Shown here: positions 24,736 through 50,366 of the stretch, piece by piece
Numbering within the stretch: position 1 is the stretch's first letter
How the letters are laid out: each line of letters begins with the position of its first letter
The notes under the pieces: generated by a model
The model's database searches: none
Told to the model about the DNA's origin: nothing
Seen by the model: only the letters and a program-made list of their open reading frames with translations
Assembly (NCBI RefSeq): GCF_003815655.1
Contig: NZ_CP033917.1
Location: forward strand, 2,108,001 to 2,172,000
Origin: Chryseobacterium sp. G0201
GTDB lineage: Bacteria > Bacteroidota > Bacteroidia > Flavobacteriales > Weeksellaceae
Reading direction: 5' to 3'
Length of the DNA stretch: 64,000 nt
Position numbers and translations under genes: made by a program

Positions 24736-24771
24736 TTCCTACTCTTTTCTAAGGCTTTTCGGATCTCGCCA
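24736..24771 (-). promoter_or_regulatory. 5' UTR structured motif, copy 1
   Basis: Coding-strand form: GGC stem, loop GAGATCCGAAAA, GCC stem, a 7-base linker and AGAGTAGGAA, ending 26 bases before the start codon. It is one of four copies in the window with covarying stem bases. Confidence 0.6.
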
Positions 24772-24825
24772 GTGTTTGTGATGTTGTTTTAACACATTTC
24801 AAAGGAACGATTTATAGGAAAACAG

Positions 24826-24850
24826 AAATAGAGTAGAAAATACCAAATTG
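24826..24850 (-). promoter_or_regulatory. Shared promoter block upstream of the collar-protein gene
   Basis: On the minus strand: CAATTTGGT, 5 bases, CTACTCTATTT. It ends 18 bases before a -7-like box (TTCCTTTG, plus-strand 24800-24807). The same block at the same 18-base spacing precedes the gene at 25011-25355. Confidence 0.55.
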
Positions 24851-24918
24851 GGGACTCCGTATTTCTACGTAACGAATCTTTTTTATAGATCAAATTCTTT
24901 AAAATGTATTGATATAGA

Positions 24919-24946
24919 AAGCCCTTCAGAAGATTCTAAAGGGCTT
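24919..24946 (-). terminator. Hairpin downstream of the 25011-25355 gene
   Basis: AAGCCCTT and AAGGGCTT form a perfect 8-base-pair stem around a 12-base loop. The T tract is weak on both sides, so termination efficiency is uncertain. Confidence 0.45.
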
Positions 24947-25010
24947 AATCTATTTTAGAGATGTTACAATTTTTTCAGGATTTAAATTCATGAAAAAGTG
25001 CGACAACTTT

Positions 25011-25355
25011 TTATTTCTGTTGAGTTGTTGGCTCTACATAATCTTCCGGAATTGCATCTTCAGCTGAATTTACGATTCTTGTAACAGCGAACGTTGTTGG
25101 TGTTTTCTGTATAATAGCAAACTGACTGTAAGAAGTTCCCGATGATTCATAAGGAGTAGCCACAATATCTCCGTTTGGAGTTTTAACAGTAGCTGTAATC
25201 TTCGTTAGTAAACATACTCCTCTGCTACTTGCTTTCCATGTTGTAAGCGGAGTTACGGTATAACTGTCATTTGAACAGAAAATACTTGCGTAATCAACAT
25301 TTCCTGATACAACATAATTTGTCGAATTGTAGATTTCTACTAGTGGATAACCCAT
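25011..25355 (-). CDS. Small beta-rich protein of unknown function
   Basis: A 114-residue protein from the ATG giving MGYPLVEIYNSTNYVVSG. The open frame continues upstream to 25505 but that part reads through the 5' UTR motif and its promoter, so I reject the longer start. The protein looks like an all-beta fold, with two cysteines (IFCSND and RGVCLL). No signal peptide and no family recognised. It shares its promoter block and UTR motif with the neighbouring tail-collar gene, so the two probably act together. Confidence 0.65.
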   Translation of the reverse strand: MGYPLVEIYNSTNYVVSGNVDYASIFCSNDSYTVTPLTTWKASSRGVCLLTKITATVKTPNGDIVATPYESSGTSYSQFAIIQKTPTTFAVTRIVNSAEDAIPEDYVEPTTQQK

Positions 25356-25383
25356 GATAATTAGTTTTTTGTGATTAGTTTTT

Positions 25384-25420
25384 TTCCTACTCTTTTTCAA
25401 TGGTTTTTCGGATTTCACCA
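25384..25420 (-). promoter_or_regulatory. 5' UTR structured motif, copy 2
   Basis: Coding-strand form: TGGT stem, loop GAAATCCGAAAA, ACCA stem, a 7-base linker and AGAGTAGGAA, ending 28 bases before the start codon. The stem is GGT/ACC here against GGC/GCC in copy 1, a compensatory change. Confidence 0.6.
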
Positions 25421-25458
25421 TATTCATATTTTTTTGAAGCTTCGTTAAATGAACAATA

Positions 25459-25509
25459 CAAATGTAGTTTCGGATGTAAACAAAAAATAGAGTAGTAGTT
25501 ACCAAATTG
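25459..25509 (-). promoter_or_regulatory. Promoter with shared upstream block for the 25011-25355 gene
   Basis: On the minus strand the block CAATTTGGT-N5-CTACTCTATTT (25485-25509) is followed after 18 bases by TACATTTG (25459-25466), a full TAnnTTTG match. Confidence 0.6.
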
Positions 25510-25631
25510 AAAATTGAGTATTTATACCTATTGTAAAATCTGAATGGATTTAAGGTTAATTTATATTGTTTTAATTTTCATTAAAAGCTTCGTATTTAGT
25601 ATTTTTGTAAGAATCTAATTATAATTAAAAA

Positions 25632-26396
25632 ATGAACGAATTCGTAGTTTCAGAACTGAAAAACAATATCGCCGAGATCACATTCGGTACTCCGAAAAGT
25701 AACTCTCTTCCGGGAGCAATTTTAGAAAAACTGGCTCAGACCATTTTGGATGAAGGATCAAAAGATGAGGTGAAAGCTATTCTTGTAAAAAGTGAAGGTG
25801 AAAAAGCTTTCTGTGCAGGAGCAAGTTTTGATGAACTTTTGTCTATTGAAGAGTTGGAAGCATCAACAAAATTTTTCGGAGGTTTTGCTAAAGTTTTGAA
25901 TGCGATGAGAAATTGCGGTAAAATTGTTGTCGTAAGAGTTCAGGGAAAAACTACAGGAGGTGGAGTAGGTATCGCTTGTGGTGCCGATTATTGTTTTGCA
26001 ACGAAAGATTCTGCTTTGGCTTTAACAGAGATCAATTTAGGAATCGGACCATTCGTGATCGGACCATATGTTGAAAGAAAAATTGGAAAATCTCAGTTTT
26101 CAGCAATGGCGATTGATGCAGATTTCAGATCGGCAGAATGGGCAGAACAGCACAATGTGTATCATTCAGTTTCAGAAAATATTGCAGAAATGGATGTTAA
26201 GCTAGAGAAATTTATGCAGACGTTAGCAACAAGAAGCAGTGATGCTTTAGCTTTAATTAAAAAAGTATCTTGGGAAGGAACAGATCATTTCAACGAATTA
26301 ATGCCTGCAAGAATCCACATGAGTGCAAGCTTGATTCTGGAAGATTCTGCGAAGAAAAATATTGAATCTATTAAAGAGAGATTGAGAGTGAAATAG
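25632..26396 (+). CDS. Enoyl-CoA hydratase/isomerase family protein (possible PaaF)
   Basis: A 254-residue crotonase-fold protein. Oxyanion-hole motifs are GEKAFCAGASFDELL and KTTGGGVGIACGADYCF, and the active-site loop is LTEINLGIGPFVIGP. The paa operon here has only one crotonase, PaaG, so the 2,3-dehydroadipyl-CoA hydratase (PaaF) must be encoded elsewhere; this nearby gene is a candidate, though the loop is not typical of PaaF. A -7-like box TATTTTTG is at 25600-25607. Confidence 0.8.
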   Translation: MNEFVVSELKNNIAEITFGTPKSNSLPGAILEKLAQTILDEGSKDEVKAILVKSEGEKAFCAGASFDELLSIEELEASTKFFGGFAKVLNAMRNCGKIVVVRVQGKTTGGGVGIACGADYCFATKDSALALTEINLGIGPFVIGPYVERKIGKSQFSAMAIDADFRSAEWAEQHNVYHSVSENIAEMDVKLEKFMQTLATRSSDALALIKKVSWEGTDHFNELMPARIHMSASLILEDSAKKNIESIKERLRVK

Positions 26397-26419
26397 GTTT
26401 TGATCTTTTAAATAATATA

Positions 26420-26447
26420 GCCGTTGATTTATTCAGCGGTTTTTTTA
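26420..26447 (+). terminator. Intrinsic terminator after the crotonase gene
   Basis: GCCGTTGA pairs with TCAGCGGT (two G-T pairs) around a 5-base loop, followed by a T run. Confidence 0.75.
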
Positions 26448-26463
26448 TGAATTTTATTTAAGT

Positions 26464-26548
26464 GTGAATAGTCAATTTTGCTTTGCGAGTCAATAGTGAA
26501 TTTTAATACACAATTAAAATTGACAAGTGAAAGGAATTGACTATTCAC
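26464..26548. repeat. Inverted repeat GTGAATAGTCAATT / AATTGACTATTCAC
   Basis: Two exact 14-base arms (26464-26477 and 26535-26548) enclose 57 bases that include further inverted words (TTTTAAT / ATTAAAA). It fills most of the gap before the 26629 gene and resembles the paa spacer hairpins in form. Confidence 0.55.
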
Positions 26549-26581
26549 AATTCACTTTTTACTTTTTTTTAAAAAAAAAGT

Positions 26582-26610
26582 TTGCAGATTAAAAATAAAT
26601 TATAACTTTG
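26582..26610 (+). promoter_or_regulatory. Promoter of the membrane-protein/regulator operon
   Basis: TTG at 26582-26584 and TAACTTTG at 26603-26610 are 18 bases apart, a good match to the flavobacterial consensus. The -7 box overlaps the palindrome at 26604-26622. Confidence 0.65.
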
Positions 26611-26622
26611 TATTTCAAAGTT
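26604..26622. promoter_or_regulatory. Operator-like palindrome AACTTTG-N5-CAAAGTT
   Basis: Perfect 7-base arms overlap the -7 box and the transcription start, directly before the start codon at 26629. A nearly identical palindrome lies at 27621-27637. The winged-helix regulator at 27306-27596 is the likely binder of both. Confidence 0.6.
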
Positions 26623-26628
26623 CTTTAT

Positions 26629-27246
26629 ATGGATTCAAAAAACTATCACGAAGATCTGTCACATATTCGTTCCATGATGGAGCGTTCGTCCAGATTTATT
26701 TCATTAAGCGGATTATCCGGAGTTGTTGCTGGTTTGGCTGCGCTTATCGGTGCCGGTTATGTGTATGTTGTTTTTCAGAGAGAAGGGATTGACTATTTTG
26801 ATGGGGACAGAAATATATTTAGTCCGGCCTTAGTGCGCGAATTGGTTATTATTGGAACTTTGATTCTTTTTGTGGCTGTTCTCAGCGGATATTTTTTTAC
26901 CGCGAATAAAAGCAAAAAGAAAGGCCTTAAAATTTGGGATGCTACAACCAAACGACTGTTGTTCACATTTTGTGTTCCTTTAATAACGGGCGGAGCGGTT
27001 TGTCTGGCGCTTTTATACCATCACTTTTTCGTTTTGGTGGCACCCGCAACATTGATTTTTTATGGATTGGCTTTAGTAAATGCCGAGAGATATACTTTAA
27101 CGGATGTAAAATATTTAGGATACTTTGAAATAGTTTTAGGATTACTTTCCCTATTTTTCTTGGGATGGGGATTGCTGTTTTGGGCCTTTGGCTTTGGAGT
27201 CTTACATATTGTTTACGGACTGATAATGCACAAAAAATATAAATAA
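26629..27246 (+). CDS. Polytopic membrane protein of unknown function
   Basis: A 205-residue protein with a short cytoplasmic N-terminus (MDSKNYHEDLSHIRSMMERS) and about five membrane helices. The ATG at 26629 is preferred to a TTG 21 bases upstream, which would lie inside the operator. It forms a two-gene unit with the following winged-helix regulator, an arrangement often seen in Bacteroidota, where the regulator controls its own membrane protein. Function unknown. Confidence 0.75.
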   Translation: MDSKNYHEDLSHIRSMMERSSRFISLSGLSGVVAGLAALIGAGYVYVVFQREGIDYFDGDRNIFSPALVRELVIIGTLILFVAVLSGYFFTANKSKKKGLKIWDATTKRLLFTFCVPLITGGAVCLALLYHHFFVLVAPATLIFYGLALVNAERYTLTDVKYLGYFEIVLGLLSLFFLGWGLLFWAFGFGVLHIVYGLIMHKKYK

Positions 27247-27305
27247 GACATAAATTTACGCCTCGGAAACTAATTCCTAAGCTCTGCAACCTATCACCTG
27301 AAATT

Positions 27306-27596
27306 ATGATCAATATAAATCAACTCAATAAAGAATTCGAAAGCCGTGTAAGATTGGGCATTATGTCCGTTCTCATGGTGAACGACTGGGTTGATTTCTC
27401 AGAAATGAAGAGTCTTTTGGAGATCACAGACGGAAATTTAGCCAGCCACAGTAATGCTTTAGAAAAAGCAAATTATATAGAAGTAAAGAAAGAGTTTGTA
27501 GGTAAAAAACCTAAGACTTCTTACAGAGTCACACAAAGTGGGAGACAAGCCTTTACAGAACATTTAAATATGTTAGAAAAATTAATAGGAAGATAA
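27306..27596 (+). CDS. Winged-helix transcriptional regulator (MarR/PadR-like, HTH_27 type)
   Basis: A 96-residue single-domain DNA-binding protein. The recognition region is EMKSLLEITDGNLASHSNAL and the wing is KKPKTSYRVTQSGRQAF. It lies 59 bases after the membrane protein. Palindromes with the same sequence in front of both flanking units (26604 and 27621) suggest autoregulation and control of the 27674-30279 genes. Confidence 0.88.
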   Translation: MININQLNKEFESRVRLGIMSVLMVNDWVDFSEMKSLLEITDGNLASHSNALEKANYIEVKKEFVGKKPKTSYRVTQSGRQAFTEHLNMLEKLIGR

Positions 27597-27620
27597 ACTC
27601 TATATTTTTTTTGAAATTAT

Positions 27621-27637
27621 ACTTTGCAATTCAAAGT
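27621..27637. promoter_or_regulatory. Second operator-like palindrome ACTTTG-N5-CAAAGT
   Basis: It matches the palindrome at 26604-26622 in both arms and spacer length, with TTCTTT following in both cases. It precedes the Coq4-like gene by 36 bases and overlaps a -7-like ACTTTG. Confidence 0.6.
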
Positions 27638-27673
27638 TCTTTGTTTATAAATGATAATTAAAATAATAAACTA

Positions 27674-28159
27674 ATGAAAAAATTACGTACTCAATTCTTG
27701 CTTTTCATGTACGAAAACTCTCAAAAGCAATATCGGAAATACTTTAAAAAGAAAAAAAGACAATGGCAATTCAATGAAAAGCAATTGTTGAGCTTTAAAG
27801 AAGATTCACTAGGAAAAACGATGGGAGAGTTTTATCAAAAACATGGCTTCAGAATGATCCCCAAAATGGAAAACCACGATGTATACCATCTTATTACCGA
27901 CTACAGTACAAATATTCAGGATGAAATTGCGATGCAGTATCTGCTTTTCGGGAACGGAAAAAGAAGCGCTTACCTTTTAGGAGTTTTGTTATTGGGAACT
28001 TTTGTTTTTCCGGAATACTATAAAACCTATAGAAAAGCCTTTCAAAAAGGAAGAAATATGAGATCATTTCACGATTGGGATTTTGAAAATCTCCTATGGC
28101 AGAATTTCGATCATCTGAAAGATTTTATCCAACAAAAACAAACTCCTGTATATTACTAA
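27674..28159 (+). CDS. Coq4-like family protein
   Basis: A 161-residue helical protein with HDVYHLIT followed after ten residues by a conserved Glu (QDEIAMQ), matching the HDxxH-x(n)-E metal-binding motif of the COQ4 family. The GNGKRSAYLLGVLLLG and DWDFENLLW segments also fit. COQ4 acts in ubiquinone synthesis in eukaryotes, but flavobacteria use menaquinone, so this protein must have another or a related role. It follows the winged-helix regulator and an operator-like palindrome. Confidence 0.7.
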   Translation: MKKLRTQFLLFMYENSQKQYRKYFKKKKRQWQFNEKQLLSFKEDSLGKTMGEFYQKHGFRMIPKMENHDVYHLITDYSTNIQDEIAMQYLLFGNGKRSAYLLGVLLLGTFVFPEYYKTYRKAFQKGRNMRSFHDWDFENLLWQNFDHLKDFIQQKQTPVYY

Positions 28160-28216
28160 AAACTAAAAGCCAAACACTAAATACTAAAAACAAAACACAA
28201 CTTTAACTTCTTTATT

Positions 28217-29587
28217 ATGAAAACACATCATTATATATTACTCACCACCTTAGCGTTCATCATCTTATTTTACGATGAAAACGTAGGATTGAACCTAGGA
28301 ATTCTAGGAATTATTTATTCAGTACTTACATTATATAAAACGCCTGAAAAAAACAGAACCAGAACATTTCTCATACTTTTTGTAACGAGCATTCTTTCAA
28401 GTATTGCTTTTGCTTGGTACGGCGATTTTCCATCGTTTTTGGCTATTGCAAGTTCACTTTTGCTGTTGTCTTACAGGTCAAAAAATAGGAGGCTAAAAAC
28501 GCTTTTCCTCATTCCTGTTTTTGTGGTCAACTGTTTCACATTTATTTGTAGATTTTTCAATTTTGACAAATGGTTGCCGAAAAGAAATATCTCCGGATTA
28601 TGGCAAAAAACATTGGCTTTTGTATTGATTCCGCTTGTGCTGATAGCTATTTTCTTTGGAATTTATTCTGCGGGAAGCGATCATTTTGCGAATCTTTTTA
28701 AAAATATCGAATTAGATATTAACTTCTGGCAGCTTTTAGTAATCACGGTTTTAGGTTTTTTCTTCGCATTCAATTATTGGAATTATACAGTCGAAAAACT
28801 GATCTATAAACAGAATCATACACTAGATGATAATTTCACGGAAGAAAATAAAATTCAGAAATCAACGTATTCTTTTCTTGATTTGGATGCTGAACGAATG
28901 AGTGGCGTTATTTCTTTCTTTTCTTTAAATATTTTATTGATATTCTTTATCGCTACTTACAATTACGAACAGTTTTTTGAATCGGTAAAAACACCCAATC
29001 AGCTTTCCGAAGAAACACACGAAAGGGTAAATGCGGTAATCGTTTCGATTGTCATGGCAATTTTGGTGATTATGTTCTATTTTAAATCGAGTTTTAATTT
29101 TGATCCTAAAGCAGGTTTGATGAAAATTTTAGCCAAAATCTGGATTGCATTAAATGTAATTCTTGTTTTCTCTGCAATGATGAAAAACTATGAATACATC
29201 ATGAGTTACGGTTTTACGTACAAAAGATTAGGCGTTTGCGGATTCTTGATTTTATCATTAATTGGCTTGATTATGACATTCATTAAGATTCAAAAGAAAA
29301 AAAGAAACGCATTTCTATTCAATGTGATGGTTGGGTATGTTTACGGAACTATTTTGGTTTGCAGTTATTTCAATTGGGGAGGTTTTATAACTTCTCAAAA
29401 CTTAAAACGCAATCATTTTGACGAATATTATCATACAACTTTTGTTAATTTTAATGAAGAGTATTTATTAAAATATGCTAAAGAAAAGCATTCCGATGTT
29501 ATAAAAAATAGTGTTCTGGAAAGAGTACGAATCGAACAAAAGGAAAACTTCTTATCCAAGGTTCTTTACTATCAAACCATTAAATAA
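28217..29587 (+). CDS. DUF4173-type membrane protein
   Basis: A 456-residue protein with about 12 membrane helices, and a soluble tail of about 60 residues. The pattern of a paired-helix core, a central FWQLLVITVLGFFFAFNYWN segment and a cytoplasmic end is that of DUF4173. Its function is unknown. It is followed 11 bases later by a DUF1361 gene. Confidence 0.75.
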   Translation: MKTHHYILLTTLAFIILFYDENVGLNLGILGIIYSVLTLYKTPEKNRTRTFLILFVTSILSSIAFAWYGDFPSFLAIASSLLLLSYRSKNRRLKTLFLIPVFVVNCFTFICRFFNFDKWLPKRNISGLWQKTLAFVLIPLVLIAIFFGIYSAGSDHFANLFKNIELDINFWQLLVITVLGFFFAFNYWNYTVEKLIYKQNHTLDDNFTEENKIQKSTYSFLDLDAERMSGVISFFSLNILLIFFIATYNYEQFFESVKTPNQLSEETHERVNAVIVSIVMAILVIMFYFKSSFNFDPKAGLMKILAKIWIALNVILVFSAMMKNYEYIMSYGFTYKRLGVCGFLILSLIGLIMTFIKIQKKKRNAFLFNVMVGYVYGTILVCSYFNWGGFITSQNLKRNHFDEYYHTTFVNFNEEYLLKYAKEKHSDVIKNSVLERVRIEQKENFLSKVLYYQTIK

Positions 29588-29598
29588 TTTGCTTTAAA

Positions 29599-30279: not shown

Positions 30280-30379
30280 GCTTTTTTTAAGGTTTTAATA
30301 TACTTTATGGAACAATTTTGGCTTCTGAATAGGTTCATGAGTTATTAAAACTCCAAAGTATCATTTAAAAATAACTATT

Positions 30380-30919: not shown

Positions 30920-30968
30920 TTTTGGTACAGTTTGTGTAAGTCATTCTATCTATAAAAGAATTACTATT

Positions 30969-33419: not shown

Positions 33420-33434
33420 AGCTAAAATCAATTT

Positions 33435-41110: not shown

Positions 41111-42415
41111 TCAACTCTGATATCCCAATAATTTTCTAATTTGGTAGAAGAACCTCTCAATAAGTCTTAGATCTTGGGTTACAATTTCGGCACTTCCTCT
41201 CAGTTCTTTATCAAAAACTAAGGTTTTATTATAACTTGTTTTTAAACCCTTTGGAAGAACAACGTCTACATAATAATTTCCTTTGTCATCTGAAGAAAGG
41301 GAAATATTTTGCACTCTGCCCTCAACAATACCATACTCCTGGAAGCGATAATTGTCAAGTTTAATTAAAACTTTTTCTCCCGGAGTTATCTTTCCTGAGT
41401 TTACTGCCGGTACAGACATTCTGCCTACTAATTTATCCTTGTTTTTAGGAAGAATAGATAAAATCGCATCTCCGGTTTTTACGAACTGATTTTCGCCAAA
41501 AAACTGCTGAAAACTGGCGACACCATCCGTGGATGAAATAACCAGATAATTTTGTTCCCATTGCTTCAGAGACTTTCGTAATTGCTCAAATAATTGTAAT
41601 GTTTGTGAAGAATAAGTAATCTTATCTTTTTCGGTATTAATAACAGTACCACTTTTTGTTCTGTTGAGATTAGAAATACTTTCTTCCATTTGTGATAATG
41701 AAATGTTTATATTTTCTAAATTCTGTTGAGCCTGCAGATACTTTATTTTTTCATTTTCAAGCTCCATTGCTGCAATTACGCCTTGGTTGAATAATTCCTG
41801 AGAACGTTGATAGCTTTTCTTTGTGATTTCATACTTTGCCTGCTCCAGGCTTTTCTGCTGTTTCATTGTTAAGATTCTCATTCTATATTCGGAAAGACTT
41901 TGATTGGCAGCTAAACTTTCAGGGGCGTAAGGCTGTAATCTTGTAAAAAGTTCCTCATCCTGAAAAGCTTTAGCAAAATTATTATAATCACCTTGTAACT
42001 CGCCCAGTTTAAAATGAGAACTCTGCTGGACAGGGAATGAACGTAACTGATTGGGAGAAATAGAATCAACAAGCTTTTTAAGCTCTAAAATATCTTTATA
42101 ATTAGCTGCGGACTGCATGACCATTAAGACCTGATTCTTTTTAACTTCCTGATGGTTTTTAATGAATATTTTTTCGATTTTGGAATTTATTCTGGCCTCC
42201 AGTTTTTCCGGAGGGTTTTGTGAAGTAACAACAATAGGTGCTGGTATAAATTCCGGATATTTTATTATATAGCTCATTCCTAAAATAAGCAGAAGGATAA
42301 TAAAAATAATGGTGTTGCCCCAACGGATCATCCAGTGGGGTGGTTGTGTAAGAATGTCCTGAACACTTTCAGAACGTAATTCTATATTGTCTAAAATATC
42401 TTTGTTAGTTTCCAA
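41111..42415 (-). CDS. HlyD-family adaptor (bacteriocin secretion accessory protein)
   Basis: A 434-residue membrane-fusion protein with one N-terminal membrane helix (residues about 30-50), a long coiled-coil (about 150-250) and a C-terminal HlyD barrel. Biotinyl-lipoyl-like halves flank the coil (KIEKIFIKNHQEVKKNQVL and SSTDGVASFQQFFGENQFV). It partners the ABC exporter, whose 3' end overlaps its start by 11 bases. It links the exporter to an outer-membrane channel of the TolC type, which is not encoded here. Confidence 0.9.
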   Translation of the reverse strand: METNKDILDNIELRSESVQDILTQPPHWMIRWGNTIIFIILLLILGMSYIIKYPEFIPAPIVVTSQNPPEKLEARINSKIEKIFIKNHQEVKKNQVLMVMQSAANYKDILELKKLVDSISPNQLRSFPVQQSSHFKLGELQGDYNNFAKAFQDEELFTRLQPYAPESLAANQSLSEYRMRILTMKQQKSLEQAKYEITKKSYQRSQELFNQGVIAAMELENEKIKYLQAQQNLENINISLSQMEESISNLNRTKSGTVINTEKDKITYSSQTLQLFEQLRKSLKQWEQNYLVISSTDGVASFQQFFGENQFVKTGDAILSILPKNKDKLVGRMSVPAVNSGKITPGEKVLIKLDNYRFQEYGIVEGRVQNISLSSDDKGNYYVDVVLPKGLKTSYNKTLVFDKELRGSAEIVTQDLRLIERFFYQIRKLLGYQS

Positions 42416-44639
42416 GTTCTAGTTGATTTTTTACCAATCTGTAATATTCGCCTCTTAATGCCACTAATTCTGCATGACTTCCTTCTTCCACGACATTTCC
42501 TTTATCTAAAACGATAATTTTATCTGCATGTTTTACGGTTGAAAGTCTGTGAGCAATAACAATGGCTGTTTTTCCTTTAAAGAATTGTTCCAGATTTTCC
42601 ATAATTATTTTTTCATTGTTGGCATCTAAAGCAGACGTAGCCTCATCAAAGAAAATATATTCCGGAGATTTATAAACTGCTCTTGCAATGAAAAGCCTTT
42701 GTTTCTGGCCTCCGCTTACTCCTAAACCTTCATTTCCGATCTTGGTATTGTAGCTTAATGGTAAACCTTCGATAAAGTCTTTAATGTTGGCAATTTCTAC
42801 GGCTTTTCTTAATTTTTGTTTATCAATGTAATCTTCACCGACTCCAATATTGTTGGCGATGGTATCGTTGAAAACATATCCTTCCTGCATTACGACACCA
42901 CATTGATCTCTCCAAAATCTTGGAGAAACATTCTTTAGTTTTGTGTTTCCGATTTTAATATCACCCTCAGTTGGTTCATAAAACTTCATTAATAGTTTTA
43001 AAAGGGTAGTTTTTCCACTTCCGCTGGCTCCAACAATCGCTGTTGTTTTTTGATAAGGAATCGTTAAGTTTAAACCTTCAAAAACAAATGCATCAGAACC
43101 AATATATCGGAAAGACATATCCTTAATTTCTATATCTTTTTGAGGAATTTCGGCAACGTATTGTTCTTCTTTATTTTCCTCATCATCTTTATCATGGATT
43201 TCGCCTAACCTCTCAAGGGAAATTTTGGCATCCTGAAATTGTTTAATAAAATCAATCAACTGTAAAAGCGGACTGTTTAGCTGTCCAATGATATACTGAA
43301 CGGAAAGCATCATTCCCAACGTAAGATTTCCCTCTAAAACCAATTTAGCAGAAAGGAAGCTTACCAGAATATCTTTCATTTGATTAATGAAGTTTCCTCC
43401 GACGGACTGCCATTGTTCTAATGATAAAGATTTAATTCTTATTTTAAATAATTTCACTTGCAAGAATTCCCAATCCCAGCGTTTTTGCTTTTCTGCGTTA
43501 TGCATTTTGATTTCCTGCATTCCGTTGATAAGCTCGATCACTTTACTTTGTTCCTGAGAAACCTGCGAGAATCTTTTATAATCAAGTTCTTTTCTTTTAT
43601 TAAGGAAAAAAGTAATCCATCCGATATACAAGACTGCGCCCACCAGATAAACGACAAACAGTCTGTAATCATAAAACAAGAGAACAATACTGAAAATAAC
43701 AAGATTCACCAATGAAAATAGAGTGTTCAGAGATGAACTTGTCAAAAGTTGTTCTATTCTGTGGTGATCGTTGATACGCTGCATAATATCTCCAGTCATT
43801 CTTGTATCAAAGAAACTTATGGGAAGCTTCATTAATTTGATAAAGAAATCCGAAATAATTGAAATATTGATTCTCGCAGAAAGGTGGAGTAGAATCCAGC
43901 TTCGGATCATTTCGATACCCATTCTGCCTAAAAAAAGCATGACTTGGGCTAATAAGACAACGTAGATGAAATTTAAATCCTGATTTTGGATTCCTACATC
44001 GACGATACTTTGGGTAAGAAAGGGGAAAATTAATGATAATAAACTCCCCGCTAAAAGTCCGACCGCTAGTTGAGCGACCAATGATTTATATTTTAATAAA
44101 TATTTTGAAAGAAAAGTAAAACTTGCCTTGCTTTCCTGATCATCAAATTCGGTTTGAAAAAACGCAGGTGTAGTCTCCAAAATAAGAACTATCCCTTCTT
44201 CTGTTTTTTCAGTGGCATTTTCGCCGATCCATAGTTTGATGAATTCATCTCGGGAATAGGTGATCAGTCCATAACTTGGATCTGAAATATATACTTTGTT
44301 ATTTTTATCAATTTTATATACTACAACAAAATGATTTTTGTTCCAATGAACGATGCATGGGAAAGGAACTTCTTCTGCAAGGGTCTCAAAATCAATTTGA
44401 ACGCCTAATGAGCGAAAACCTAGGTCTTCCGCTGCATCGCTAAGACCTAATAAGCTGCTTCCTTCTCTTGTAGTTTCAGAGAGGTTACGAATTTGCTGTA
44501 AGGAAATGCTTTTTCCATAATGTTTGCTTACGATACGAAGACATGTGGGACCGCAATCCTTGGAATCTGGTTGACGGTAGAAAGGAAAAGTTTTCAACTT
44601 CAATGATCTATCTATTTGTTTAAAATAAGTTGCCGCCAT
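42405..44639 (-). CDS. Peptidase-containing ABC exporter (C39, bacteriocin type)
   Basis: A 744-residue PCAT. Residues 1-140 are a C39 peptidase that cleaves double-glycine leaders; the catalytic Cys is residue 29 (SKDCGPTCLR), with a His in WNKNHFVVVY and the Asp in ISDPSYGL. Six membrane helices follow (about 160-440), then an ATPase domain with Walker A GASGSGKTT, signature VSGGQKQR and Walker B FDEATSALD. It is the only exporter in the RiPP island. Its substrates are presumably the three Cys-rich peptides upstream and possibly the other precursors. A hairpin spans its start codon. Confidence 0.95.
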   Translation of the reverse strand: MAATYFKQIDRSLKLKTFPFYRQPDSKDCGPTCLRIVSKHYGKSISLQQIRNLSETTREGSSLLGLSDAAEDLGFRSLGVQIDFETLAEEVPFPCIVHWNKNHFVVVYKIDKNNKVYISDPSYGLITYSRDEFIKLWIGENATEKTEEGIVLILETTPAFFQTEFDDQESKASFTFLSKYLLKYKSLVAQLAVGLLAGSLLSLIFPFLTQSIVDVGIQNQDLNFIYVVLLAQVMLFLGRMGIEMIRSWILLHLSARINISIISDFFIKLMKLPISFFDTRMTGDIMQRINDHHRIEQLLTSSSLNTLFSLVNLVIFSIVLLFYDYRLFVVYLVGAVLYIGWITFFLNKRKELDYKRFSQVSQEQSKVIELINGMQEIKMHNAEKQKRWDWEFLQVKLFKIRIKSLSLEQWQSVGGNFINQMKDILVSFLSAKLVLEGNLTLGMMLSVQYIIGQLNSPLLQLIDFIKQFQDAKISLERLGEIHDKDDEENKEEQYVAEIPQKDIEIKDMSFRYIGSDAFVFEGLNLTIPYQKTTAIVGASGSGKTTLLKLLMKFYEPTEGDIKIGNTKLKNVSPRFWRDQCGVVMQEGYVFNDTIANNIGVGEDYIDKQKLRKAVEIANIKDFIEGLPLSYNTKIGNEGLGVSGGQKQRLFIARAVYKSPEYIFFDEATSALDANNEKIIMENLEQFFKGKTAIVIAHRLSTVKHADKIIVLDKGNVVEEGSHAELVALRGEYYRLVKNQLELGN

Positions 44640-44653
44640 TTTTTGACGGCAAC
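44629..44653 (-). promoter_or_regulatory. Hairpin displaying the start codon of the ABC exporter in its loop
   Basis: On the coding strand GTTGCCG (44653-44647) pairs perfectly with CGGCAAC (44635-44629), leaving an 11-base loop that contains the ATG. No Shine-Dalgarno sequence was evident. Confidence 0.5.
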
Positions 44654-44694
44654 CCTTCTCTTATGTTTAAAAGTATATTAACTTTTAGTAATTC

Positions 44695-44880
44695 TTAATA
44701 GCAATATTTATTGCAATAACGGATACAGAAATTAAAATCTGGATCTGAAAAAGTAGCTTCACAAGCTGCTAACGTAGAAAAGCATGCAGTAGATGCTGCC
44801 TGTCCTCTTGCACATTCTTCTGTGATTCCTCCCTTTACTGTTTTAAGATTTTCTCTTGATAGTTTTCTCAGGTTTTTCAT
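44695..44880 (-). CDS. Cys-rich double-glycine peptide 1 (61 residues)
   Basis: Leader MKNLRKLSRENLKTVKGG ends at residue 18. The 43-residue core contains six cysteines spaced C-x9-C-x6-C-x10-C-x3-C-x3-C. A GG leader beside a C39 exporter marks it as an exported bacteriocin-like peptide. It is the last of three such genes and lies 55 bases before the exporter gene. The core has no match that I know. Confidence 0.85.
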   Translation of the reverse strand: MKNLRKLSRENLKTVKGGITEECARGQAASTACFSTLAACEATFSDPDFNFCIRYCNKYCY

Positions 44881-44986
44881 AGCTTAGAAAATTTGTGATT
44901 AGTGGTATCGAAAATAGGATATTAATCTTTAAGTATCAAAAAATAATACCATATTTTGATATTTTGTTTGTGATCAGTGTTTTAGA

Positions 44987-45163
44987 TTAGTCTATTGGAT
45001 AGTAAGTACACAGATAGGTAGACGGGCTTGCTCCTGCAATCGTACGGCATGCACCATTTGCGCAGCACCACCCTGGTCCGCAATCTCCATCTACAGGACA
45101 CATTCTAAGACCTCCTTTAATCGTTTTTAAATTTTCTCTTGAGATTTTTGTAAGATTTTTCAT
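44987..45163 (-). CDS. Cys-rich double-glycine peptide 2 (58 residues), knottin-like cysteine pattern
   Basis: The gene encodes a leader MKNLTKISRENLKTIKGG and a 40-residue core with six cysteines spaced C-x5-C-x4-C-C-x4-C-x12-C (residues 22, 28, 33, 34, 39, 52), the C..C..CC..C..C order of inhibitor-cystine-knot peptides. The frame is clean and in the same orientation as the neighbouring peptide genes. It begins 42 bases after peptide 3 and ends 106 bases before peptide 1. Confidence 0.85.
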   Translation of the reverse strand: MKNLTKISRENLKTIKGGLRMCPVDGDCGPGWCCANGACRTIAGASPSTYLCTYYPID

Positions 45164-45205
45164 AGTATAAATTATTTTAAAATGATTTGTTGATTTTGGA
45201 TTGAT

Positions 45206-45349
45206 TTATTCGATTGAAATTCCACAAGACGTGCCAAAAGGGATACATTTTCTGGTTATATTACACCAATAATACCCTGCAAGACACTCCGGAATAGATC
45301 CTTGAATAGACTTCATGTCTTTCTTCGAAAGTTTTCTTAAATTTTTCAT
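45206..45349 (-). CDS. Cys-rich peptide 3 (47 residues) with a GS-type leader end
   Basis: The gene encodes a leader MKNLRKLSKKDMKSIQGS and a 29-residue core with four cysteines spaced C-x6-C-x5-C-x6-C. The leader ends GS where the others end GG, so C39 cleavage may be less efficient or at a different site. It is the first of the three peptide genes and has the 5' UTR motif (45367-45400). Confidence 0.85.
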   Translation of the reverse strand: MKNLRKLSKKDMKSIQGSIPECLAGYYWCNITRKCIPFGTSCGISIE

Positions 45350-45366
45350 AGTAATAGTTTTTAGTG

Positions 45367-45400
45367 TTCCTACTCTTTTTAAGCTTTTCGGATACCGCTT
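45367..45400 (-). promoter_or_regulatory. 5' UTR structured motif, copy 3
   Basis: Coding-strand form: AAGC stem, loop GGTATCCGAAAA, GCTT stem, short linker and AGAGTAGGAA, ending 17 bases before the start codon of peptide 3. Confidence 0.6.
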
Positions 45401-45450
45401 TTTAATTTGTCCTAAGTTAGTGAATTTTTATAATTGATAAATATTTTTCT

Positions 45451-46962
45451 TTAAAACTCCTCGTCTTCTATTAAATCAGTAATGAAATACCAAATATCTT
45501 CACGATCATATTTTTCCGGAAACTGATGTCCATTGATGATAAATACGGGTGTAAAGTTTAATCCGGCATTACTGTTATCATTTGACATTTGAATCAGAGG
45601 ATCCAGATTTTCCTGATTTGAGCTTGTTCCGGCAATTTCTCTTATTTTGTCTTCGTTTTTATTTTCAAACCAAGTATCTACAGCATTTAAAAAATCTTTT
45701 TCGGGTCTGTTATTATAAATATGAGTGAAATCTGAAATCAGGTTAGTAAATTTTTCATTCGCTCTTTCCGGAGTATAGTTAAATCTTATCTGCGCCGAAA
45801 TATCATTAGGATATTTTTCTAATAACTGCTCTGTTATTTTGTGAGCATCTTTACAAAATCCACAATACGGATTTGAAACGATTGAAATATGAAGTTTGGC
45901 ATTTTTATTTCCTAAAGAAAAGGTTTCATTATCAGAAAATTGAATTTTTTCATTGTCGGTAAGTTCTCTTTTGAAGAGATCATAATTTCTTTTGAACCTT
46001 AAATTCTTTGCATTAGATTTTTGTAATGTTTCTTTTTGTTCAAGTACATTATTTAAAAAGAGTATAAGAGAAAAAGATGATAACCACAGAATAATACTTA
46101 ATAAAAGTATTTTGGAATCAAAAAAGAGATTCTCAAAAAAGAAAAAACTGATGGCTATCTGAGCAACAAGAATCGAAATGATGATAAGGCATACACGACA
46201 GAAAGTTTTCTCAACAAAAGCCTGTACGTAAACCGAATAACCAATTGCTACCAACGATGCCAACGTAAATCCTTTAATTACAAATGCCGAACTCGGTAAA
46301 AATAGACCTAAAACAGAAATTCCAATAAAATAAATTAGAGAAAAATCTGAAAATTTCAATCCAAGAATACTCGTTTTGTCTTGGTTAATAATCTTATTAC
46401 ATGAATTGACGTTTTGAGAGGCTGAAGCTCCGGCACCACAGATACTTCCAATTACCGCAGAAATATTTCCAAATTTTTGATTGAAAATTTCAAGAGAAAT
46501 ATACACGCCAATGATTGATAAAAGGTTGAATGCAACGTTATACCAAGCATGATTTAATAAAGAATAGATAAGTATAATTCCTAAAATAGAATATACAAAA
46601 GGAGTGAAATTAGTAACGGATTTAGTTTCTGTTTTTTCATCTTTTTCAAAAAGCAGTACGAAGTCGGTCGAGTTTTTGTGAAGTTCTTCTTTATTTAAAG
46701 TTTTTGCTTTATCTGAATAAACAGAGTATTGTGCTCCTGCTTTTTTAACTAGTGAAAAGGAATTTTCAACAATAGCAATAAATTCTTCAGGTAGCTCGTC
46801 CCAATATTCTTTGTCTAATTCATAAGCGTCATTTCGTACACCCATAAAATTCAGTGTATCGCTAAAAGCCAGTGCTGACGGGTAGTTCGGATGAGAGTTG
46901 AATTGGAAAACAAATTCCTGTTTGTCAAGTTTAAGATAGTTGATGAGTTTATCAAAGGTCAT
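45451..46962 (-). CDS. VKOR/thioredoxin-fold disulfide-forming membrane protein with a C39-like N-terminus
   Basis: A 503-residue protein in three parts. Residues about 1-110 resemble a degenerate C39-like domain (FNSHPNYPSALAFSDTL) with no catalytic Cys. The membrane part (about 125-310) is a vitamin K epoxide reductase domain with cysteines near 175 and 188 and the quinone-facing CRVC near 254-257. The C-terminal part is a DsbA-like thioredoxin domain with CGFC near 367-370 and a cis-Pro (NFTPVFII). Such fusions make disulfides de novo using quinone. It lies directly upstream of the three Cys-rich peptides, which have four to six cysteines each. Confidence 0.88.
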   Translation of the reverse strand: MTFDKLINYLKLDKQEFVFQFNSHPNYPSALAFSDTLNFMGVRNDAYELDKEYWDELPEEFIAIVENSFSLVKKAGAQYSVYSDKAKTLNKEELHKNSTDFVLLFEKDEKTETKSVTNFTPFVYSILGIILIYSLLNHAWYNVAFNLLSIIGVYISLEIFNQKFGNISAVIGSICGAGASASQNVNSCNKIINQDKTSILGLKFSDFSLIYFIGISVLGLFLPSSAFVIKGFTLASLVAIGYSVYVQAFVEKTFCRVCLIIISILVAQIAISFFFFENLFFDSKILLLSIILWLSSFSLILFLNNVLEQKETLQKSNAKNLRFKRNYDLFKRELTDNEKIQFSDNETFSLGNKNAKLHISIVSNPYCGFCKDAHKITEQLLEKYPNDISAQIRFNYTPERANEKFTNLISDFTHIYNNRPEKDFLNAVDTWFENKNEDKIREIAGTSSNQENLDPLIQMSNDNSNAGLNFTPVFIINGHQFPEKYDREDIWYFITDLIEDEEF

Positions 46963-47034
46963 GTTAATATTTTTAACTAAAATACGCAGATGTTTTAAAA
47001 AAACAAATGTTTTTCTTGAAATGGTGAGTTATAT

Positions 47035-47844
47035 TTAGTTTTTAGGATATTTTATGGCTTCAGATAATTCGATTGGATTGTTGTATTTTTTCAAACGAGA
47101 TTGGATTGCTTTTGTCATTTCTCTAAAATCAGGTTTTACCTCTTTTCCTTTTTCATCTATAAATTTTGTTTTTGCATTTTTTGATTTCATTTCTCTTAGA
47201 GGGTCACTGTAATAATTTAAATATACTTTTTGTAACTGCTTTTGCGGAATATTAAGCGCTCCTTTATACATATTCTCAAAATCTAAAGCATCAGATCTTT
47301 TCTTTATTGATTGAAGGCTAAATTTGTAAGAACCGGTTGAATCTTCCATATAAACTATTAATCCAGGCAAATTTCGAAATATATACGGCCCTGCTTGAAT
47401 TGGCAAATCTTGAGTATACCATGCCTCCCAAGTTCTTCCTTTATATTTTAAAGTTGCTTTTCTACATAAGTATGTGCTTATTTTTTTTGTGTCGGGTTTT
47501 AGTTCCCAATTTAGCTTTACATTTTCTTTTACTTTATATACATCTTTAATAAAAAAATAATATTTAAAACTTAGATCTTCTTTATCATTAATAACTAAAA
47601 AACTATTATCTCCCATAGCAGAATTTTTAGATCCCGTACTTTTAAGTGAGTCTACTTTATATTGGGTTTCAGTCAAAAATTTAGATTTAACTCCCTGAAC
47701 CAAAAGTATCATATTTTTATTGGTCATCTCGGAACTTAACGAATCTTCTTTATAAGTAAGTTGATAATCAAGTCGAAAATTTTGAGCATAAAAATTACAA
47801 GACAAAATGATTAGTACTAAACTTTTTAAAATTTTATAATTCAT
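47035..47844 (-). CDS. GLPGLI-family protein
   Basis: A 269-residue exported protein with a signal peptide (ILSCNFYAQ) and the diagnostic motif RNLPGLIVYMEDSTGSYKF near residue 160, preceded by WYTQDLPIQAGPY. GLPGLI proteins are a Bacteroidota family of unknown function often beside TonB-dependent receptors or peptide-maturation genes. Here it follows the SPASM protein by 32 bases and precedes the VKOR protein, so it is probably in the same transcription unit. Confidence 0.9.
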   Translation of the reverse strand: MNYKILKSLVLIILSCNFYAQNFRLDYQLTYKEDSLSSEMTNKNMILLVQGVKSKFLTETQYKVDSLKSTGSKNSAMGDNSFLVINDKEDLSFKYYFFIKDVYKVKENVKLNWELKPDTKKISTYLCRKATLKYKGRTWEAWYTQDLPIQAGPYIFRNLPGLIVYMEDSTGSYKFSLQSIKKRSDALDFENMYKGALNIPQKQLQKVYLNYYSDPLREMKSKNAKTKFIDEKGKEVKPDFREMTKAIQSRLKKYNNPIELSEAIKYPKN

Positions 47845-47876
47845 AATAAATATTTTTCATTTAATTTTTTGATCTT

Positions 47877-48875
47877 TTAATTAAATTCTGCGGTGTAGGG
47901 ATTATAATTACAATCAACTGTATATCCGGTTTTACCTTTCTCTGGAAGATAGGTCGTTGTGCAGCAATACCTAAATTCACAAACATTACATGGGGTAATA
48001 TCATCTTTTTTAATATTCCATAATTTCGATAATTTTTTCACAGTATTTGTTTTTATTTCTTTAAAATCTTCCAAAATATTTCCATAACTGTTTTTAGCTG
48101 AAAAAGTATGTTTTATATTTCCATTTTCGTCAATAAATATTGTTTTGTATAATGCTAGGTTATAATTATTAGCAATATTATATGCATTTATACTTATAGC
48201 AATATCGTAAATTCTAAATTGTGTTAAAAACAAATTAGTGCCGTCCTTGGTTATATAATCTGTAATCACTTCATTATTTTGTTGAACTCTTTTTTTGGGA
48301 GAATTAAATATAACAATAGATGTTAGTCGTTTATTTTCATAAACTTTTTTATTTATTTTTTGATATGGAATAGAGAGTGATAAATTAGATATTTGCGAAT
48401 ATTCCAAAGAAGATAATATTTTCAATATTTGTTCCATACAGTTATTGTTATCAATATGAATATGTAATCTTTTAACTCCTAATTGTCTAATATTTTTCAC
48501 AAATAAATCAATATTACCATAAATATATTGTGATAGAATTACTGTTGTAAAAAGGACTTCGGATATATCTTCATTGATACTTAAAATAGGCAAATCGTGA
48601 AAAAATTCATTGGAAGAATAAAAAATAAATTCTTTTTTTTCTAAAAAACTCAAATATTCTTTTGCTGTTTCATGTAGTTGATATTCTTCCAAAACATCAC
48701 TAACTTTTTGACCTCTAATATCTTCTACAAAATTTATTAAAGTATTTGGCACAAATTCTATATTTTCTCTTTGAATGTCATATATAGCACTTCTTTCAAA
48801 GCCTTTCACTAAAATACAACATGAAAAAAAAGAAATATATTTATTGTTATTTTTCTGTAAATAAATTAATTCCAT
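47877..48875 (-). CDS. gwsS: Grasp-with-spasm system SPASM-domain peptide maturase
   Basis: A 332-residue protein with a SPASM-type C-terminus (CNVCEFRYCC ... VDCNYNPYTAEF) holding at least five cysteines for Fe-S binding. The N-terminal region has no CxxxCxxC, so it lacks the radical-SAM cluster motif. This is the known feature of the SPASM partner in grasp-with-spasm systems, whose exact function is not established. Its start overlaps the end of the small 66-residue gene. Confidence 0.85.
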   Translation of the reverse strand: MELIYLQKNNNKYISFFSCCILVKGFERSAIYDIQRENIEFVPNTLINFVEDIRGQKVSDVLEEYQLHETAKEYLSFLEKKEFIFYSSNEFFHDLPILSINEDISEVLFTTVILSQYIYGNIDLFVKNIRQLGVKRLHIHIDNNNCMEQILKILSSLEYSQISNLSLSIPYQKINKKVYENKRLTSIVIFNSPKKRVQQNNEVITDYITKDGTNLFLTQFRIYDIAISINAYNIANNYNLALYKTIFIDENGNIKHTFSAKNSYGNILEDFKEIKTNTVKKLSKLWNIKKDDITPCNVCEFRYCCTTTYLPEKGKTGYTVDCNYNPYTAEFN

Positions 48876-49047
48876 CTTTGTATATTCTTAAACAATGTAT
48901 TTCTGATTGATGAATAAATGTCGATATTTTTCTATTTCTACTATTTCTTCTTGCATTTATGTTATTTTCAATAGGAAAGACATTTGAAAATAGAATTGGA
49001 AACAATTCCTTATTATATCCTATTTCTTCTATTAAACTTTTTTTCAT
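48847..49047 (-). CDS. Small protein coupled between the ATP-grasp and SPASM genes
   Basis: A 66-residue basic protein (MKKSLIEEIGYNKELFPIL...) with no family recognised. Its ATG overlaps the TGA of the ATP-grasp gene (ATGA, 49044-49047), and its last 29 bases overlap the start of the SPASM gene. Such coupling at both ends argues that it is translated. It could be a leader-binding or adaptor protein, but nothing in the sequence shows that. Confidence 0.6.
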   Translation of the reverse strand: MKKSLIEEIGYNKELFPILFSNVFPIENNINARRNSRNRKISTFIHQSEIHCLRIYKDGINLFTEK

Positions 49048-50009
49048 ATATTCATGTTTTTTAGATAATTAGCTACTTCATAATGAAGATTATAATTACA
49101 AGGTAAAGAAGTCATCCTAAACTGACCAGATGGATTTACTTCTAAAAAATAATATTCGCCATCATCTGCTTTTATCATATCCAAAGAACCAGTATTCAGT
49201 CCTAATTTTTGCATCAAAGCTGATATTTTTTCATCCATACAATTGGGGAGACTATATGAAACGTATCTATTCGGATTCTCGGAGTTGATTTGTCTGTAAT
49301 CTATTTTTGTTTGATCATCATTTTGAGAAAATATAGCCATACTATAATTTTTGCCGTTCAAGTGGAAAATCCTAAGCTCATATTCTTTGCTGATCTTTTC
49401 TTGAAATAAACTAGGAAAGAAATTTTCATAACTTCTGATTTTTTTTTCACTTAATTCATTGGTGAAAAAAAAGAATGCTTTCTCATCAATATCGATTACT
49501 GATCCGTCATTTATAGATTTAGTGACATATACCTGATCATAGTTTAAATTACCTGAATTGTTGCTTACATATGTTTTAGGAATTTTAATTCCAATTTCTT
49601 GTGCCGCAATTAAAACTCCTATTTTAGTCATTGATTGTAGGTTTAGATAATGGTTAAGCCATTTTTTATCTTTTAAAAATTCAAAAAAAATATCTAGTGT
49701 CGACATATATTCTGATTCCAAATAATTTAATAGTTTTATATTTTTTTCTGTTTTTATAAGTTCCTTATATTTATTAAAGAAACCAAATTTCCTGAACCAA
49801 ACACATTTGACTTCTGATATATTGACTTTTCCAAAAAAAATATTTTCTACAAACAATTTAGGATATGGCTGTAATTCCACATACATTTTCGTTTTTCCTG
49901 TAAATAAATCTAAATCGTTAATTCTTATATGCTTTTCGCCAAGAAGTGACAAGTGTTCCATTACCCAGTTTGTATCATCATCATTTGGAGTAGATAAAAT
50001 TAAAATCAT
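49044..50009 (-). CDS. gwsG: Grasp-with-spasm system ATP-grasp peptide ligase
   Basis: A 321-residue ATP-grasp enzyme of the graspetide (microviridin-like) type. It begins MILILSTPNDDDTNWVMEHL and has the C-terminal Mg-ATP motif GSLDMIKADDGEYYFLEVNP. Enzymes of this family join Ser/Thr (or Lys) side chains to Asp/Glu carboxylates in the precursor, forming macrocyclic esters or amides. It follows the precursor gene by 115 bases, across a terminator that may lower its expression relative to the precursor. Confidence 0.9.
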   Translation of the reverse strand: MILILSTPNDDDTNWVMEHLSLLGEKHIRINDLDLFTGKTKMYVELQPYPKLFVENIFFGKVNISEVKCVWFRKFGFFNKYKELIKTEKNIKLLNYLESEYMSTLDIFFEFLKDKKWLNHYLNLQSMTKIGVLIAAQEIGIKIPKTYVSNNSGNLNYDQVYVTKSINDGSVIDIDEKAFFFFTNELSEKKIRSYENFFPSLFQEKISKEYELRIFHLNGKNYSMAIFSQNDDQTKIDYRQINSENPNRYVSYSLPNCMDEKISALMQKLGLNTGSLDMIKADDGEYYFLEVNPSGQFRMTSLPCNYNLHYEVANYLKNMNI

Positions 50010-50071
50010 ATTATAAAAACTATTTATGTGGATTGAGTTTGTTCATTTGAAAGACCTTCATATTACGAAGT

Positions 50072-50107
50072 ACAAAAAACAAAAAATCACCTCAAATGTA
50101 TTGAGGT
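50072..50107 (-). terminator. Terminator or attenuator between the precursor and the ATP-grasp gene
   Basis: ACCTCAA pairs with TTGAGGT around a 5-base loop and is followed on the minus strand by GATTTTTTGTTTTTT. It lies 18 bases after the precursor stop. Partial read-through would give more precursor than enzyme. Confidence 0.7.
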
Positions 50108-50124
50108 AACTTTTTTGTTGCATG

Positions 50125-50313
50125 CTAATTCTTACGATCCCAAGATGAATCATCAGCTGTACCACCATTATTCATAATCGTAATACAGTTTCCCAGTTCA
50201 GCATCTTCAAGGGTACTCGCTGATTTTAATCCTGCATAAACAGTTTTCAAATCACCTAATTTTTTACCTTTTAAGGATTCTAATGATTTCTTTGATTGCA
50301 TTTCTTTTTTCAT
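50125..50313 (-). CDS. gwsA: Grasp-with-spasm (graspetide-type) precursor peptide
   Basis: A 62-residue peptide with a basic N-terminal leader (MKKEMQSKKSLESLKGKKLG) and a C-terminal core NNGGTADDSSWDRKN, rich in the Thr/Ser and Asp residues that ATP-grasp ligases cross-link. One cysteine (GNCITI) lies before the core. The possible cleavage site is the VYAG end of the leader (residue 28) rather than a classical GG. The gene has a UTR motif (50333-50366), a terminator just after it, and a shared upstream palindrome. Confidence 0.85.
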   Translation of the reverse strand: MKKEMQSKKSLESLKGKKLGDLKTVYAGLKSASTLEDAELGNCITIMNNGGTADDSSWDRKN

Positions 50314-50332
50314 AATATTTAAAAAATGATTT

Positions 50333-50366
50333 TTCCTACTCTATTTAAGCTTTTCGGATTCCGCTA
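50333..50366 (-). promoter_or_regulatory. 5' UTR structured motif, copy 4
   Basis: Coding-strand form: AGC stem, loop GGAATCCGAAAA, GCT stem, short linker and AGAGTAGGAA, ending 19 bases before the precursor start codon. Confidence 0.6.

Follow-up and report, generated by a model that had tools for sequence, protein, structure and literature searches.

Covarying stem and pseudoknot of DUF805b RNA, an orphan leader RNA family present before peptide, conflict and phage genes in Bacteroidota

Closest described RNAs and the four copies in the window

DUF805b RNA (Rfam RF02914, typed Cis-reg and placed in clan CL00115) is a catalogued family of short RNAs that stand in cis before genes of Bacteroidota, with 35 positions forming a hairpin with a 12-nt loop and a conserved GAGUAGG tail; its consensus structure line, as given by cmscan, holds the hairpin stem (P1) only. 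We know of no function for this RNA, and none was found in the portions of the open-access literature available to us, where the accession turned up only in a machine-learning paper. Here we report that a 64-kb stretch of the genome of Chryseobacterium sp. G0201 (the host; contig NZ_CP033917.1, positions 2,108,001 to 2,172,000, hereafter the window) has four DUF805b copies of this form before genes, and that copies from many genomes add to the consensus line a covarying pseudoknot (the knot), a predicted loop E module, a start-codon register, use inside operons and copies in phages. The novelty of the knot is judged against the consensus line and not against the original description of the family (Weinberg et al. 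2017).

The nearest relative is DUF805 RNA (RF03081), which belongs to the same clan and has the same 3' half (a hairpin, ACCGAAAA and GAGUAGGA) but carries an extra upstream hairpin; the window copies lack this hairpin and match DUF805b alone (RF03081 gathering cut-off 51.1). In the four Rfam-confirmed RF03081 copies that were read (L063, L087, L094 and L012) the first knot pair is A opposite A. One RF03081 copy is present in the host genome (G000:C1:4768761-4768825, L012/L478; 63.3 bits), situated before a gene for a secreted-looking protein. Small H-type pseudoknot riboswitches of the preQ1-I type are also alike, being about 35 nt long with a hairpin loop that pairs with a tail close to the start region, but they differ in that the DUF805b tail does not track the Shine-Dalgarno sequence and the DUF805b targets lack an evident common pathway. 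The anti-Shine-Dalgarno sequence is CCUCC, and the DUF805b tail reads GGA, GGC, GGG or GGT, matching the loop base; since the third base of the tail varies with the loop base, the tail follows the knot and not the anti-Shine-Dalgarno sequence. No riboswitch was matched at the gathering level when the window was scanned with Rfam.

All four window copies match RF02914 over the full model (1-35) at 40.1-51.6 bits against a gathering cut-off of 35.6 (Rfam 15), and they are members of a catalogued orphan RNA family without explained function. The preliminary description of this DNA, made from the letters alone, had placed the four copies correctly on the minus strand but had recognised no named RNA family in them; this was wrong, and a match to a described Rfam family was among the outcomes that it had listed as speaking against its proposal. 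The stem partners differ together among copies 1-4 (GGC/GCC, ATGGT/ACCAT, AAGC/GCTT and AGC/GCT), and P1 of copies 2 and 3 is longer than the GGT/ACC and AGC/GCT first given for them. The 12-nt loop of all four copies contains ATCCGAAAA and ends in TCCGAAAA; AGAGTAGGAA follows, and the tail reads GAGTAGGA. By itself ATCCGAAAA is mildly enriched in the window (6 matches against 1.45 expected, with as many in 1 of 100 shuffles); the whole motif is far above chance, with Rfam E-values of 8.7e-12, 3e-11, 3.9e-9 and 6.7e-8 for the 64-kb window. The knot bases are identical in the four copies, so the window alone could not reveal the knot.

Covariation of the stem and the pseudoknot

For a larger collection of copies, 160 regions were taken beside loci of the genome scans, and all 356 regions were searched for GAAAA and GAGTA separated by 3-24 nt with three free bases on either side. 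Among the 553 distinct matches, 333 came with a stem and an open reading frame (ORF), and restricting the distance and length of the ORF left 308 copies in 145 protein clusters. Knot pair 1 is G-C in 114 of these copies, T-A in 107, C-G in 33, A-T in 11 and a wobble pair in 15, and it is unpaired in 28. When copies were picked by stem and ATG and not by the knot, this pair was formed in 214 of 221 against 96.6 ± 7.0 after shuffling (maximum 121); knot pairs 2 and 3 are nearly constant in that set and carry little information. In a set picked by knot and ATG and not by the stem (238 copies), stem pairs 1-3 were formed in 227, 234 and 229 copies against 97.9 (± 6.8 for pair 1), 216.0 and 135.1 after shuffling, while a fourth pair is optional (148 versus 103.2) and a fifth is unsupported (58 versus 69.9). 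A third set took one copy from each of the 103 of 145 clusters in which a member had the standard loop length and the standard distance to the ATG (101 distinct sequences; three inner stem pairs were required and the knot was not a criterion). Here 93.9% of the stem and knot cells are paired versus 66.8 ± 1.2 after shuffling, and the covariation score is 0.682, whereas shuffled versions score 0.153 and slid ones no more than 0.114.

This covariation shows that the hairpin and the pseudoknot are both true RNA helices. The structured RNA with a covarying stem, as first proposed from four copies, is thus backed by sets of 101 to 308 copies, and the pairing of loop and tail that had been guessed is borne out, loop NCC and tail GGN' changing together through all four Watson-Crick pairs.

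Next to the knot helix, GAA and AGUA are near-invariant. With up to two mismatches allowed in GAAAA and GAGTA, 209 of 212 candidates with stem, knot and ATG were exact, one had one mismatch and two had two, compared with 35, 5 and 191 of 231 candidates without the knot, all of these counts coming from a sampling biased toward exact copies; a copy in the host genome, L013, carries AAGTA. The bulged-G (loop E, sarcin-ricin) consensus has the order 5'-NCC-GAA-3' against 5'-AGUA-GGN'-3'. At the sequence level DUF805b likewise has AGUA opposite GAA right beside the Watson-Crick pairs of a CC/GG helix, and the host 5S rRNA has CCGATGG...GAGAGTAGG at the corresponding place. GAA and AGUA are therefore candidates for, and probably form, a bulged-G module stacked on the knot helix, which would explain why fixed unpaired bases stand beside varying paired ones; unlike the known module, it would be formed across a pseudoknot and not inside one hairpin.

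The linker varies in length among copies independently of stem length (r = -0.05), and a compensation between loop and stem lengths was discarded. The spacing between GAAAA and GAGTA avoids 8 nt (7, 8, 9 and 10 nt in 29, 2, 37 and 26 gene families), which may reflect two knot geometries. Two loci, L028 and L230, have high-scoring copies together with the collar-type upstream element described below, a broken knot (ACC versus GGA) and no open collar gene directly behind, and they are probably decayed genes.

Position before start codons and the proposed point of control

The ATG follows the last knot base after 18-28 nt (5-95% range; median 21, n = 270, with 8-60 nt allowed), and in window copies 1-4 this distance is 27, 29, 18 and 20 nt. 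In Flavobacterium johnsoniae, start regions have little structure from -20 to +20, and initiation benefits from A at -3, -6, -12 and -13 (PMC6847099). A register of 18-28 nt places the end of the knot at the border of this region or slightly beyond it. At these four positions A is present in 76%, 58%, 81% and 72% of 239 motif genes, compared with 39%, 36%, 40% and 37% of 1008 control ORFs with mechanically called start sites (range over -3, -12 and -13, 34-43%; nearly unchanged for stricter control ORFs), and G makes up 0-7% of the bases at every one of the 20 positions that follow the knot.

Apart from an A-rich step ahead of the stem, nothing stands at a fixed position upstream in 229 non-redundant leaders. 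Enrichment is seen for promoter-like TTTG (235 versus 142 expected) and for a two-box promoter pattern (5 versus 0.45 expected), both at scattered positions, and no fixed promoter ahead of all copies was found. Among 262 copies, 49 overlap a co-directional upstream ORF of at least 80 aa or are at most 25 nt away from its end (ORFs called mechanically; six overlaps beyond 20 nt may be spurious), and at several loci each of two adjacent genes has its own copy, e.g. a caspase-domain gene and the gene next to it (L201, L206). Since it is the distance to the start codon that is constrained, and not the distance to transcription signals, the step that would be controlled is translation of the next cistron.

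We propose, with moderate confidence, that DUF805b RNA would be a per-gene, post-transcriptional translation-initiation element in leader RNA, a compact pseudoknot for which a positive sign is preferred. The leader folds into a hairpin of 3-5 bp whose loop NCC pairs with the downstream GGN'; GAA and AGUA would extend the knot helix, probably as a bulged-G module, and the knot stands just upstream of the low-structure, A-rich start region used by the Shine-Dalgarno-independent ribosomes of the phylum. It would act on the directly following cistron, after transcription and at translation initiation, where the folded knot, by itself or together with a factor bound to it, would help to load the 30S subunit. 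The positive sign is preferred because the knot lies outside the ribosome-binding stretch, the A-rich start is free, no sequestering partner is visible and phages use the element. More tentatively, DUF805b could be a portable initiation module of Bacteroidota and their phages, a per-cistron substitute for the Shine-Dalgarno sequence that sets or gates 30S loading on secreted-peptide, conflict and phage genes.

Several points weigh against an initiation enhancer. RNAfold, which cannot model the knot, puts P1 in the minimum-energy fold of one of the four window copies, in copies 3 and 4 a competing CGG/CCG hairpin that takes up the CC of the knot is favoured, and 96 to 198 of 200 shuffles are at least as stable as the window copies; thermodynamic stability was dropped as proof of structure, RNAfold having given no support. 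Because P1 is weak alone, a partner is likely and may be needed, with which the sign could be negative; a repressible switch would agree with this no less than an enhancer. Moreover, control start sites that are called mechanically are noisy, optimal start regions would also suit a strong gene under repression, and the absence of any ribosomal or housekeeping family among the listed families of the 105 target proteins scanned (see below) is odd for a plain enhancer.

A translational operator, in which a host protein or a small molecule would stabilise the marginal pseudoknot and the bound form would block 30S loading (an off-switch or riboswitch), is possible but doubtful. It agrees with the weakness of the hairpin by itself, the near-invariance of the non-helical GAAAA and GAGTA, the A-rich and G-poor start regions and the up to 21 copies per genome, which suits a regulon. 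However, the knot stops at the border of the -20 to +20 region and does not overlap the start codon, and there is little to sequester the start, G being as rare past the knot as stated above and CTACTC, the complement of GAGTAG, occurring in none of 275 downstream stretches (2.3 expected); in addition, the loop E module alone can account for the invariant bases, and use by phages before ParB-like genes is unexpected of a host repressor site.

It is unlikely that the element serves mRNA stability or processing, the knot shielding the 5' side of the cistron from ribonucleases or marking a cleavage between cistrons: a compact pseudoknot that is in part intercistronic would suit this role, but the start-codon register would be needless. 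Very unlikely, and dropped, is the idea that the identity of knot pair 1 (T-A, G-C, C-G or A-T) is a regulon code, with T-A before leader and non-Sec proteins and the others before Sec-signal proteins. The T-A knot does go with products having no N-terminal hydrophobic stretch as judged by a simple hydropathy rule (25/34 versus 33/83 over all gene families, p=0.001; 16/17 versus 5/16 within the family of the host, p=2e-4), and pairwise sharing within a gene family is 0.90 for knot pair 1 versus 0.71 for stem pair 1 (stem pair 3, 0.87). Outside the family of the host, however, the association is not significant (p=0.14), the conservation edge is lost when gene families are given equal weight (0.70 for knot pair 1 versus 0.79 for stem pair 1), and 10 of 25 families have more than one knot type. 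Least probable of all is that the motif acts as double-stranded DNA, either as an operator or as an alternative promoter element. Although an inverted repeat exists and an unrelated conserved DNA element does stand upstream of collar genes, the stem sequence is free with complementarity retained, a second, crossing helix covaries, the linker length is variable and the spacing to promoters is not fixed. Of the other possible refutations named in the preliminary description, conservation of bases without covariation was not observed, and a DNA operator is not supported.

Genes, genomes and phages carrying the RNA

The copies and the genes behind them, all on the minus strand, are listed in Table 1.

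Table 1. Features of the window associated with the DUF805b copies
Feature	Position	Strand	Remarks
DUF805b copy 1	24737-24770	-	Before tail-collar gene, ATG 24709; RF02914, 40.1 bits at 24736-24772
Copy 1, P1	24770-24768/24755-24753	-
Copy 1, loop TCC and tail GGA	24763-24761 and 24739-24737	-
Copy 1, near-invariant GAAAA and GAGTA	24760-24756 and 24744-24740	-
DUF805b copy 2	25385-25421	-	Before gene of 114-aa protein, ATG 25355; RF02914, 43.7 bits at 25384-25421
Copy 2, P1	25421-25417/25404-25400	-
Copy 2, loop TCC and tail GGA	25412-25410 and 25387-25385	-
DUF805b copy 3	45368-45400	-	Before gene of 47-aa Cys-rich peptide, ATG 45349; RF02914, 51.6 bits at 45367-45401
Copy 3, P1	45400-45397/45384-45381	-
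Copy 3, loop TCC and tail GGA	45392-45390 and 45370-45368	-
DUF805b copy 4	50334-50365	-	Before graspetide precursor gene, ATG 50313; RF02914, 50.0 bits at 50333-50367
Copy 4, P1	50365-50363/50350-50348	-
Copy 4, loop TCC and tail GGA	50358-50356 and 50336-50334	-
Tail-collar domain protein, 182 aa	24161-24709	-	Behind copy 1; PF07484 Collar, 7.1e-25
Small protein, 114 aa	25011-25355	-	Behind copy 2; no Pfam or NCBIfam match; counted from ATG 25355, the mechanical ORF list beginning at an upstream TTG
Cys-rich bacteriocin-like peptide, 47 aa	45206-45349	-	Behind copy 3; NF047798 leader_Chryseo, 32.3 bits (cut-off 23.5)
Probable graspetide precursor, 62 aa	50125-50313	-	Behind copy 4, upstream of maturases; no family match itself
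Conserved 37-bp DNA element, operator/promoter-like	24833-24869	-	Upstream of copy 1, outside the RNA element

The genes named at the outset behind the four copies, for a collar protein, a small protein, a Cys-rich peptide and a graspetide precursor, check out. The neighbours of the 62-aa peptide match TIGR04192 (276.9 bits, cut-off 230) and TIGR04193 (142.5 bits, below the cut-off of 175) of a grasp-with-spasm system. The peptide locus at 42405-50313 (minus strand) comprises the graspetide precursor, the grasp-with-spasm ATP-grasp and SPASM proteins, a GLPGLI protein, a VKOR/thioredoxin protein, the Cys-rich peptide and a C39-peptidase ABC exporter, and two of its genes carry DUF805b.

The target scan covered 105 proteins, partly related to one another. 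Four are from the window, and the other 101 are cluster representatives, of which two out of 103 were omitted (one of 35 aa and a duplicate of a window gene). Among the families listed (25 of 36 for Pfam and 25 of 38 for NCBIfam), DUF805, DUF2589, Collar, subtilase and leucine-rich repeat (LRR) occur twice each and PixA, caspase, rhodopsin, RDD and others once each in Pfam, and NCBIfam gives a bacteriocin-like leader three times, a class I lanthipeptide, a radical-SAM ribosomally synthesised and post-translationally modified peptide (RiPP) and proteins sorted by the type IX secretion system (T9SS); no shared metabolic pathway is evident. The largest clusters, as judged by eye, are leader peptides of the double-glycine type (47 copies) and short Sec-signal peptides (28 copies). 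The view that the motif stands before peptide precursors and collar-type genes is accordingly true but too narrow, as caspase, PixA, DUF2589, DUF805, subtilase, LRR, rhodopsin and viral ParB-like genes follow it too.

The host genome has 10 RF02914 matches over the cut-off, four of them in the window. Among its weaker matches, L011 and L013 were judged by eye to be genuine, and L012 is the RF03081 copy mentioned above. RF02914 is present in 130 of 197 genomes of the host's family at E<=1e-5 (120 over the cut-off), in 93 of 395 genomes of its phylum at E<=1e-6 (76 over the cut-off) and in 0 of 14 control genomes at these limits; at E<=1 all 14 control genomes give chance matches, none over the cut-off. 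A pattern scan of named genomes found stem, knot and a nearby ATG in 21 of 48 loci from Bacteroidota and in 0 of 32 others, as sorted from record titles among the 80 listed of at least 117 loci. By eye, one of these others, an Ignavibacteria locus (L065), has a DUF805-type leader before a gene for a DUF805-like protein.

Phages also carry the RNA. Among the matches listed, 23 of 120 viral-contig loci hold 25 copies with stem, knot and ATG, all 23 records being above the Rfam cut-off. Four of the 25 genes behind these copies match one ParB-like PHROG, and at L431 a portal-protein gene lies shortly behind the copy. In an isolated phage, Flavobacterium phage vB_FspS_lillamy9-1 (NC_048835.1), a single copy (52.1 bits) at 12781-12815 begins 4 nt past gp40 and is followed 20 nt later by the ParB-like gp41, which leads into the genes for single-stranded DNA-binding protein (SSB) and primase. 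No phage homologue of the window stretch itself was found, and one of the viral proteins had no relative among phage records.

The 37-bp DNA element is distinct from the RNA. Fifteen aligned leaders picked by keywords (13 collar and 2 small-protein) have in common CGTAnAAATACGnAnT(N5)ATTTGGTnTTTTCTACtCTA and a -7-like box before the RNA, and window copy 2 has a worn version of this collar-type element. When up to 3 mismatches are allowed, the host genome has two matches to the 37-bp element, one in the window (Table 1) and one at L481 (G000:C1:552954-552990); at up to 1 mismatch the element is found in 51 of 60 genomes of the host's genus, the reversed control giving no match. In the 32 loci read it precedes a collar gene in 17 (one of them classed "other" by keyword), a Tle1-like phospholipase gene in 13 and something else in 2, where Tle1-like is assigned by PF09994 in the host's copy (type VI secretion system Tle1-like, L481) and by sequence keyword at the other loci. 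None of the 13 Tle1-like genes has a DUF805b copy before it; one regular-expression flag proved on reading to be no copy. At L503, compared with L488, the upstream element, the start region and the collar gene are kept and the DUF805b stretch is missing. The Tle1-like loci without the RNA and L503 thus show that the upstream DNA element and the RNA element are separable, and our data suggest that the collar-domain proteins and the Tle1-like effector form one transcriptional regulon. L503, with a leader naturally without DUF805b but otherwise intact, provides a direct experimental handle. An anti-motif switch was considered because 16 of 275 copies (2.1 expected) have CTACTCT, which is complementary to AGAGTAG, at a distance of 57-190 nt on their upstream side. 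It was rejected: according to the alignment, 13 of these 16 occurrences, in collar and small-protein leaders, are part of the separate conserved upstream element.

Taken together, an orphan Rfam family now has a testable mechanism, and DUF805b RNA may give many genes of bacteriocin-like, secreted and conflict type a common layer of control. If true, the proposed role in translation initiation would bear on how Bacteroidota choose and tune their start codons without Shine-Dalgarno pairing.

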